Part shown: positions 2,549 through 25,077 of the stretch, piece after piece
Numbering within the stretch: the stretch's first letter is position 1
Layout of the letters: every line of letters begins with the position of its first letter
Assembly (NCBI RefSeq): GCF_032393985.1
Contig: NZ_CP135918.1
Coordinates: 5,891,724-5,955,723, forward strand
Origin: Fischerella sp. JS2
GTDB lineage: Bacteria > Cyanobacteriota > Cyanobacteriia > Cyanobacteriales > Nostocaceae
DNA: 64,000 nucleotides
Direction of reading: 5' to 3'
The notes under the pieces: model-generated
The model's database searches: none
What the model was told of the DNA's origin: nothing
The model's input: the letters and a program-made list of their open reading frames with translations, nothing else
Program-made: the position numbers and the translations under genes

Positions 2549-3180
2549 GATGCCTCTAATACTATAGGGTTTTTATATCTAACTTGCTATCAGCACAAGG
2601 GTAGCGTAAGCTTAGTAACTGCCGATAGATGCCCTGGTAGGCATAACAGAAGGTATGCAATCTTTCCAGCCTTGATTTTGGTGAGTTTGCTACTGGCAAA
2701 TAAGCTAATGTAGCATTCACAGTGGCATTTGAGGGTCTTGAACTCCAACGCGTCCTCTGCTGGGGAGGGAAAGTTAGTAGACCAAAAGCTACAACGCTTT
2801 GCTTTGGGATTCCCACGGTAGTGGGCTTGGGGAAGATAATAGTATACCATGAACAGTGCTAGTTTGGGGGTTCACCACTCCTGCTTCTCTTACACAGTAG
2901 GGCATTTCCGTAAGGATAAGAGTACGCGTAGGGGGTTTTCCCGCTTTTGCGACCTGTCCGTAGGGAAACCTCTAACGCACTGGCTCTGCTCGATATCACT
3001 TACTTTCAATGATGATTATTGACCAGCAACAACAAGGACAAAATCTCAAATTGATTTAACCCACCCCCTCCACTGAACAGCTATTTTCATTCATCCTACA
3101 TTGATTTGGTAGTAACAGATGAGCCTAAATCCTCATCGGTTGTCTATCTTGTGCTGTTGTAAATAGGGTTTGAGTTCAGA
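2549..3180. other. Intergenic region, about 630 bases, no supported gene
   Basis: Two overlapping reverse-strand frames (about 2562-2850) have composition and lengths expected by chance and resemble nothing I recognise. The segment around 2890-2990 carries motifs common in Nostocales intergenic DNA (CCGTAAGGATAAG, CCGTAGGGAAACC). I see no RNA gene. Confidence 0.5.
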
Positions 3181-3897
3181 CTACCATCTTACCCTACTAG
3201 TCGCCACCAATAAAAGTGGATGCGACCACCACAATAGCAGCACAAATATAGCAACTCCAATATAAGCAGGACGAAGGAATTCCTGCCACCGTAGAGATTG
3301 ACGTCCATCTAAAATGGCTGCAAAGGGAATAATGCTCGTGCGCTGTTTCACTGCCATAAAAGCCTCGCCATAGCGCCAACTAAGACGGCGATCGCCATGC
3401 CAGACCCCAAAGGCGTGATGTAAAATCAAACCCAAAGAAGTAACTAAAGTAAAAGTTGTACCCAACCACAGAGTATGAGCAATACACCAAATTATCTGTC
3501 CAACCATTTGCGGATGACGAGTAATACGAATAATTCCTGTTTCATAGAGGTGGACTTGGGGCTTTTGAATGGCAGCAACTTCTAGTAGATTGAAAGTAGC
3601 AGGATACAAAAATAAAAAAGAAATTGCTGACAGTACCCAAACAAATGGTTTTACCCAAGGTAAACTTTGGACTTGCCAAAGCTGTAAACCATCATAACGA
3701 TGGTTAAAAAAGTAAATAATCAAAATTACTGCCAAAGGTAAACTAACTAAGGCAAAGATAATCCGGTAAACTCGTGGGCCAATATATTTTTCTGCCCAAG
3801 GTCGCAAGGCGGCTCCGCCGCTATGAGCAATTGCAAAACCAAATTGTAATCCCAACATTATAAAATGACTGGGGGTCAACCACGGTGGCAGCATCAT
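3181..3897 (-). CDS. NnrU-family membrane protein, probable 15-cis-zeta-carotene isomerase (Z-ISO) type
   Basis: About 238 residues, strongly hydrophobic, with about six to seven membrane segments. NnrU-type features include LQFGFAIAHSGGAALRP near the N-terminus, YETGIIRITRHPQMVGQIIW in the middle and LILHHAFGVWHGDRRL later. The conserved His residues match the heme-ligand idea for plant Z-ISO, a heme b enzyme isomerising zeta-carotene in carotenoid synthesis. Cyanobacterial members of this family have been proposed to have the same role; NnrU itself was named from denitrifier clusters. I chose the ATG at 3895-3897 over an upstream GTG. It is divergent from rbcR, with a shared promoter region at 3898-4109. 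Family confidence is high; the exact reaction is inferred. Confidence 0.8.
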   Translation of the reverse strand: MMLPPWLTPSHFIMLGLQFGFAIAHSGGAALRPWAEKYIGPRVYRIIFALVSLPLAVILIIYFFNHRYDGLQLWQVQSLPWVKPFVWVLSAISFLFLYPATFNLLEVAAIQKPQVHLYETGIIRITRHPQMVGQIIWCIAHTLWLGTTFTLVTSLGLILHHAFGVWHGDRRLSWRYGEAFMAVKQRTSIIPFAAILDGRQSLRWQEFLRPAYIGVAIFVLLLWWSHPLLLVATSRVRW

Positions 3898-24067: not shown

Positions 24068-24139
24068 AAGTGGTATCATGGAAAGTGATATCCATATATT
24101 TTGGGGCTGTAGCTCAGTTGGATAGAGCGAGCGCCTCCT

Positions 24140-24812
24140 GAACTATCGGGCACCATAGAGGAAACTCTATGAGTGAATGTGGTTAAATTCGGTGAACCCT
24201 AAAAAATGAGTAAACCGTTGTCAAACTCCTAGTGATGATTAGGGCAAAGAGCTACCAAATTGTCGATATCGTTAATCTGAGAAATAAGCGTATTGTGAGC
24301 GAAGTCTTTAATAGGCTTGATGTGGCACATTTTATAGTGCTTGTCATATCCGCACACAGCGCACTGTTTAGGTTTATCTGATTGACAGTATATGTTTCTG
24401 GCAATTTGACGCACTCTAGCTGAATGCTGGTACAACGCCTTAGCCTTAATGTCAGCAAGAGTAAGACTTGACCAATCCACGTAAAACGGGTTACAAAAAT
24501 CACAAGTAGTTATTCTACCGATGATTTCAAGCCCATAGTGTTTGCAAAATCTCAGTTTCTTGTTTTTTTAGGATGTTTCTGCTTATTGTAAGAAGCGGCA
24601 CAAGAGTGAGAGCAAAACATAGGATTGGTAGTTGCTAGACCACAGTTTTTACATTTCATGGGAATACCGAGCCAAGCCTGAGTATTAAAACTATACAGTA
24701 TATAGCTGTAAGTTTTCTCAGGAAGGTGTAGAGACTAGATAGCCACCACCTAAAGACTTACAGTCTATGGTGAAGGTATAGTCCAGAGAGTGGGGAAACT
24801 CACACAAATCTG
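24140..24812 (+). ncRNA. Group I self-splicing intron in tRNA-Arg(CCU)
   Basis: 673 nt starting GAACTATCGGGC and ending CAAATCTG. Conserved core pieces are recognisable: a P-like element (AAATTCGGTGAACCC, 24186-24199), a Q-like element (CCGAGCCAAGCCTGAG, about 24668-24683), the R-like element AAGGTGTAGAGACTAG (24723-24738) and the S-like element GAAGGTATAGTCCAGAG (24772-24788). The 5' exon ends in U and the intron ends in G. A stem ATAGAG/CTCTAT near 24155-24170 fits P2. The arrangement resembles the IC3 tRNA introns. An insert of about 460 bases between P and Q, probably in the P5 loop, holds a decayed HNH gene on the opposite strand. Splicing competence is inferred. Confidence 0.88.
24199..24659 (-). 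pseudogene. HNH homing endonuclease remnant inside the intron, antisense to the tRNA
   Basis: Read on the reverse strand, it begins MKCKNCGLATTNPMFCSHSC (a zinc-finger start usual in intron HNH enzymes). It continues after a one-base frame change with LRFCKHYGLEIIGRITTCDF and DWSSLTLADIKAK, and reaches the HNH core CAVCGYDKHYKMCHIKPI...LVALCPNHH. There are two lesions. A run of seven A (24563-24569) where eight would keep the frame; the total length of 461 bases also fits one lost base. And an amber TAG (24229-24231) exactly where the family has Trp after NHH; reading through gives EFDNGLLIF then a stop. Full length would be about 153 residues. Recoding by -1 slippage at A7 is a less likely alternative for the first lesion. 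Confidence 0.8.
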
Positions 24813-25077
24813 AAGCGCTAGGTCGCCGGTTCGAGTCTGGCCAGTCCCGTTGTCTAAAAACTTTTATATAAAGTTGCACGAACACTTTGCATCTGCCTCA
24901 ATAGCGGCTAAAATCTAGCATCGAGTCAGCAACTATCTATTGTTGCTAGGCTTACTTGATTGCTTGCAAAACAAGGGAATTACCCAAAAAATACTCTTGG
25001 GAAAATTTCTCCTAACTTTGCGGTGTTAATTATTCTTTTTCAAGAAAAATTGTTGCAGCTGACGAACTGATAGAACC

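Follow-up and report, generated by a model that had tools for sequence, protein, structure and literature searches.

We consider it probable that the tRNA-Arg(CCU) gene of Fischerella sp. JS2 carries a once-mobile composite group I intron, which acquired an HNH endonuclease gene, antisense in its loop L5, by way of collaborative homing. The gene lies within the window, a stretch of 64,000 nucleotides of contig NZ_CP135918.1. The element is a composite of a ribozyme and an HNH homing-endonuclease gene, which lies in antisense orientation in L5, outside the ribozyme core. On a plain reading this is a known kind of intron; it stands out through the antisense endonuclease gene and through the cross-phylum association of that endonuclease family with tRNA-Arg(CCU) genes.

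The split tRNA-Arg(CCU) gene and its ribozyme

Upon joining of the two exons (Table 1) a complete tRNA of 74 nt is obtained, which ARAGORN calls tRNA-Arg(cct), and with introns allowed the same program finds the same 673-nt insert and junction in the unjoined DNA. This agrees with the first-pass annotation, which had placed a group I intron of 673 bases right after anticodon base 36 and had proposed the joined-exon check. An intron occurs at exactly this junction in 24 of 60 related genomes, that of Fischerella sp. JS2 included; 18 of the 60 have intron-less alleles (15 recognized by abutting exon halves and three more by ARAGORN), the remaining 18 being unassigned. Neither the default ARAGORN scan, which did not call the split tRNA, nor the Rfam scan at the gathering cut-off, which did not detect the intron, reports this locus. 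At a permissive threshold the Rfam group I model RF00028 (Intron_gpI), likewise suggested in the first-pass annotation, aligns with positions 24127-24805 across all 253 model positions (42.0 bits; E = 3.8e-9 in a search of 951 bases), yet 8 bits below its curated gathering cut-off of 50 bits, and the alignment places a long insert in L5. Among the introns of relatives, those of G002 (ORF-less, 61.6 bits) and G183 (HNH-bearing, 52.0 bits) exceed the cut-off, that of G265 scores 42.9 bits, and that of G016 (L101) has no match at E <= 0.1.

Table 1. Features of the tRNA-Arg(CCU) locus, in positions of the window
Feature	Position	Strand	Basis
tRNA-Arg(CCU) 5' exon, last base is anticodon base U36	24103-24139	+	ARAGORN
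Group I intron, 673 nt, terminal G	24140-24812	+	ARAGORN, RF00028, helix count
tRNA-Arg(CCU) 3' exon, CCA not encoded	24813-24849	+	ARAGORN
P1, exon CCU and intron GA paired with UCGGG; U.G pair at 5' splice site	24137-24150	+	helix count; U.G pair in ORF-less relatives
P3 5' strand, partner 24741-24746 across P7	24179-24184	+	homology with G002
P5 5' strand, partner 24660-24662; antisense gene occupies the loop between	24197-24199	+	RF00028 alignment, helix count
P7 5' strand, partner 24779-24783	24733-24737	+	homology with G002
Broken HNH endonuclease gene of 461 nt, antisense, occupying all of L5	24199-24659	-	ORF, domain, alignment with open relatives
N-terminal piece, 35 codons and stop, ATG 24659-24657	24552-24659	-	ORF
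C-terminal piece with HNH_2, early TAG 24231-24229 where three open relatives have Trp	24229-24567	-	ORF, domain search, alignment
T7 run (A7 on minus strand), point of frame loss	24563-24569		alignment with relatives

Ten helices (P1 to P9, with P8 in two pieces and P3 crossing P7) were drawn on the intron of G002, a genome of the same genus whose core is 0.990 identical to that of the window over 204 columns, and were counted on 17 ORF-less introns. This count showed that: 1) 96.0% of 883 cells are paired, versus 87.3% in column shuffles and 32-41% when the structure is slid, a control that flatters the structure because it was written on one of the counted rows (G002). 2) 22 of 52 pairs have changed on both sides. 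3) The covariation score is 0.359, which none of 500 shuffles reached; shuffles give 0.196 and the slid structure 0.05-0.09. One other covariation measure, further pair types, does not exceed the shuffles, 106 of the 500 being as high. 4) The U.G pair at the 5' splice site is kept in 17 of 17 ORF-less relatives. The exon-final U and intron-final G noted in the first-pass annotation are likewise borne out. The conserved core P3-P8 with its P3/P7 pseudoknot is thus present. According to this model the pre-tRNA would fold such that P1 presents U36 in the U.G pair, guanosine would attack at U36|G, and the 3'-terminal G would define the second step, with normal tRNA-Arg(CCU) as the predicted product.

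ARAGORN, applied to loci covering all 76 RF00005 places of the genome, called no further tRNA-Arg(CCU), a check that had likewise been proposed; DNA and pattern searches brought up the two exon halves only, which in the search with the joined tRNA were the sole halves of full identity. An element of the tRNA array (L074, 3506-3578) whose anticodon has four bases, 'tcct', and on which ARAGORN is undecided between Gly and Arg, was rejected as a second CCU tRNA, its loop being without the CCUAA of tRNA-Arg(CCU). ARAGORN on the RF00005 loci also called two tRNA-Arg(UCU) genes, which may read AGG by wobble. Because these genes exist, the earlier claim that an unspliced tRNA would cost the cell its AGG decoder is too strong; the interrupted gene is indeed the only CCU gene found, but without splicing AGG decoding would probably be lost only in part. 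Elsewhere in this genome RF00028 matches at 900007 with 89.5 bits, in a host that ARAGORN called Ser(aga) and that presumably contains the usual tRNA-Leu(UAA) intron. Two further places without a tRNA call, 6659304 (26.3 bits) and 4387136 (18.3 bits), were taken for coding DNA, and a fifth lies at 1158190 (12.1 bits).

The antisense HNH gene in L5

The first-pass annotation overlooked an HNH gene on the opposite strand, which takes up 461 of the 673 nt or about two thirds of the intron, as well as the link of its family to tRNA-Arg(CCU). The gene exactly fills L5: the start codon directly adjoins one strand of P5, and the original stop codon overlaps the other. It is open in three of the four genomes found with it (G016, G183 and G265, the C-terminal end of G016 being changed), and the HNH_2 domain is above the cut-off in all three open relatives; the C-terminal piece of Fischerella sp. 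JS2 itself reaches 27.3 bits against a cut-off of 21. A search of PDB sequences gave weak matches only (best E 0.26). The open genes of the three relatives show pN of 0.16-0.18 and pS of 0.71-0.79, the pN/pS ratio of about 0.09 from the two computable pairs being indicative only because synonymous sites are near saturation. The antisense gene of the open relatives is under purifying selection. A scan for promoters and terminators found no terminator and no promoter-like site on the minus strand (two sites found against 2.0 expected, both on the plus strand, which is chance level), and no SD-like sequence was seen before the HNH ATG.

In Fischerella sp. JS2 the endonuclease gene is decaying. 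The open G183 gene measures 462 nt; that of the window is one base shorter, as is its T run, and its reading frame is no longer intact, being lost at this run and ended early by the TAG. It is possible, if unlikely, that the missing base is a homopolymer assembly error and that the endonuclease, merely shortened by the TAG, may still cut: the lesion sits in a homopolymer run, the TAG falls just past the last HNH residues, and substitutions between the C-terminal piece and G016 favor third codon positions (19, 10 and 45 at positions 1, 2 and 3 over 105 codons). Against this stand the TAG itself, a second and independent lesion at a Trp common to the three open relatives, and the loss of the gene in the same-genus G002. 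Programmed frameshifting at the A7 run (zero frame AAA AAA ACA) is not preferred; decay or an assembly error is the better explanation because the run is absent from the three open relatives and a second lesion is present. Decay also has possible counterparts among the relatives: G002 lacks the gene and keeps short matching ends, and G012 retains a stretch resembling its N-terminal end. These apparent remnants would fit loss from an HNH-bearing intron, though the HNH gene may also have been gained independently.

Intron lineages and free-standing relatives of the endonuclease

The intron is unevenly distributed even within the genus: G001 has an intron-less tRNA-Arg(CCU) allele, and G002 has the intron without the HNH gene. 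A search across the order (388 genomes, six with an HNH match at E <= 1e-10) added the introns of G183 and G265 and brought the collection to 26, of which four contain an antisense HNH gene, five a sense LAGLIDADG gene and 17 no long gene. The core tree of these introns has two sides with 100% ultrafast-bootstrap support; HNH is confined to one of them (4 of 14 introns) and LAGLIDADG to the other (5 of 12). The sense LAGLIDADG genes, of about 200 codons, occur in the trnR-CCU introns L104-L108 (G003, G030, G055, G043 and G038) and, unlike the HNH gene in L5, lie between P7 and P3', flanked by sequences that could apparently pair; in G003, the one tested, the LAGLIDADG_2 domain scores 134.5 bits.

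An earlier contig scan with the C-terminal piece alone gave 36 pattern matches, none confirmed as relatives. A profile of the three open proteins recovered 20 loci in named genomes: 1) In 12 of them a free-standing HNH gene lies antisense and convergent at the 3' end of an intron-less tRNA-Arg(CCU) gene; eight of the 12 belong to the single genus Hymenobacter, one to Dependentiae, one to Chloroflexi and two to Nomurabacteria. The end of the gene is 16 to 58 nt from the 3' end of the tRNA in nine of these loci and overlaps it by 38-39 nt in the other three. 2) Three loci lie inside trnR-CCU introns, namely those of a Chroococcidiopsidaceae MAG (identical to G265 in protein and intron length), Atlanticothrix silvestris CENA357 (G016) and an Anaerolineales MAG, the intron of which scores 32.5 bits with RF00028. 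3) Three loci, matching by their C-terminal half only, do not adjoin trnR-CCU. 4) Two loci (L170 and L175) lie beside or within an irregular CCU-bearing tRNA-like sequence. We estimate the per-locus chance at about 2e-4; the tail value, which was computed with a rough n of 16 and treats loci of one genus as independent, is not used.

The two irregular loci differ in layout. In L175 (Sphingomonas formosensis, 1290-1980) the HNH relative is in sense between what resemble a tRNA 5' end and a tRNA 3' half, and its stop codon TAA lies in a CCTAA that resembles an anticodon loop. In L170 (a Chloroflexota MAG) a tRNA-like element that ARAGORN does not call stands between the end of the HNH gene at 1965 and a tRNA-Lys at 2124, with a CCU-bearing anticodon-like arm seemingly ahead of the D-like arm.

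In Hymenobacter, 81 genomes were searched and 70 loci examined, of which 69 have a tRNA call and seven the HNH gene; the presence of the gene is patchy within this clade. When the gene-bearing locus L181 is compared with five gene-less loci, similarity spans the upstream DNA and ends at the tRNA 3' end in four, the fifth sharing the tRNA alone; against six gene-bearing loci it continues through the gene in all six, with L184 sharing no upstream DNA. Over 38 loci, same-genome duplicates included, the T-arm is GAG/CTC in 14 and GGG/CCC in one (L164) of the gene-bearing loci, versus GAG/CTC in three, GGG/CCC in 18 and other forms in two of the gene-less ones. A resistant (immune) donor tRNA allele was looked for in these 38 loci and not found; we claim none because the tree of the upstream DNA shows that the allele largely tracks ancestry.

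Sister subfamilies adjoin other tRNA genes. One is found downstream and antisense of CAU-anticodon tRNA genes in three cyanobacteria. In all five phage regions fetched, of 16 phage records matched, a tRNA is found no further than about 300 nt from the HNH gene, and both viral contigs matched carry the gene within a tRNA cluster. In Felix O1 (L142, 1450-2004) the HNH gene overlaps the start of a tRNA-Ile(GAU) gene by 7 nt, and in TomSawyer (L146, 1363-1833) an HNH relative ends 7 nt before such a gene. The tRNA array of Fischerella sp. JS2 (L074, G000:C1:5769500-5774000) likewise includes, at about 2712-3400, an open HNH gene related to that of the intron and situated antisense between tRNA halves; the same place in G002 holds an intact CAU-anticodon tRNA.

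Origin of the composite intron and its place among known systems

An intact HNH protein, such as the three relatives encode, would cut the intron-less trnR-CCU gene, and repair from an intron-bearing copy would then install the intron together with the endonuclease gene. Under collaborative homing a free-standing endonuclease would have recombined into an intron already sitting in the same target gene. Such a fusion is the most likely origin of the intron-borne HNH gene because, in four lineages, close members of the family stand free beside intron-less tRNA-Arg(CCU) genes and converge with them. The family as a whole appears to be a tRNA-gene-associated homing family, whose target could be broader than trnR-CCU given that sister subfamilies adjoin other tRNAs. 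Whether it amounts to a pan-bacterial, undescribed HNH homing family specialised on tRNA genes, with a trnR-CCU subfamily that exists both free-standing, on the antisense side of intact trnR-CCU genes that it adjoins or overlaps, and as the motor of trnR-CCU introns in Cyanobacteria and Chloroflexota, lodged antisense in L5, we judge to be evenly balanced.

A different account would have the HNH gene invade L5 at a look-alike site, with the free-standing copies using tRNA 3' ends as safe docking places and cutting no tRNA gene. The 5' flank of L5, CCCTAAA, does resemble the exon junction CTCCTAAG, the match being of five bases and perhaps fortuitous, and sister copies dock beside genes of the tRNA-Met(CAU) type and phage tRNA-Ile genes. 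However, the Arg(CCU) identity comes back as an intron-less gene in four lineages and as an intron host in two phyla, and as pure docking would not predict one anticodon, we regard this account as rather improbable. A dead tRNA gene into which DNA was inserted by chance, as the silence of the default ARAGORN and Rfam gathering scans might suggest, is scarcely credible given the perfect joined tRNA, the covarying ribozyme core, the recurrence of the junction among related genomes and the status of the gene as the only CCU gene found.

An intron in tRNA-Arg(CCU) is known from Agrobacterium. Like other bacterial tRNA group I introns, the present one places a group I ribozyme in the tRNA anticodon loop and is patchy among relatives. 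PMC5733544 names a group I intron of tRNA-Arg(CCU). In Synechocystis, according to PMC1995217, the intron of tRNA-fMet codes for a PD-(D/E)XK enzyme, in contrast to the antisense HNH gene in L5 found here. For group I introns of nuclear rDNA, with Didymium iridis S956-2 as one example, PMC3679873 describes homing genes opposite to the ribozyme strand; those are eukaryotic and the insertion sites listed are P1, P2, P6, P8 and P9, whereas here the host is a bacterial tRNA gene and an HNH_2 gene occupies L5. In the collaborative (trans) homing of phages, as presented in portions of PMC3984707 and PMC2988022, a free-standing endonuclease and an ORF-less intron converge on one gene and a fused composite is expected; here a bacterial tRNA gene is the host and cleavage at the insertion site is a prediction. 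The phage T4 enzyme SegB (PMC2988022) is likewise a homing endonuclease that stands free and acts in a tRNA region, but it belongs to the GIY-YIG family with a phage tRNA intergenic target, whereas the enzyme of the window is of the HNH type. The sections of the literature searched mention no endonuclease gene lying antisense within a group I intron of bacteria and no HNH family tied to tRNA-Arg(CCU), and the word antisense is absent from the main text of a review of bacterial group I introns.

The locus adds, for bacteria, an intron with an antisense homing gene inside it, and it shows that a default tRNA scan overlooks the sole CCU-decoding arginine tRNA found in the genome. The acquisition of endonucleases by group I introns has, in the parts of PMC3984707 and PMC2988022 considered, been argued mainly from phage systems. 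At trnR-CCU, ORF-less introns, introns with open or decayed genes, intron-less alleles and free-standing enzymes all occur in living genomes, and therefore both the fusion model and the cycle of gain and decay are testable, which the small proteins and the 74-bp target make feasible. The locus suggests how mobile introns are assembled, and if the pan-bacterial reading is true it would represent a bacterial, tRNA-based instance of this process in which the states before and after assembly are both alive.
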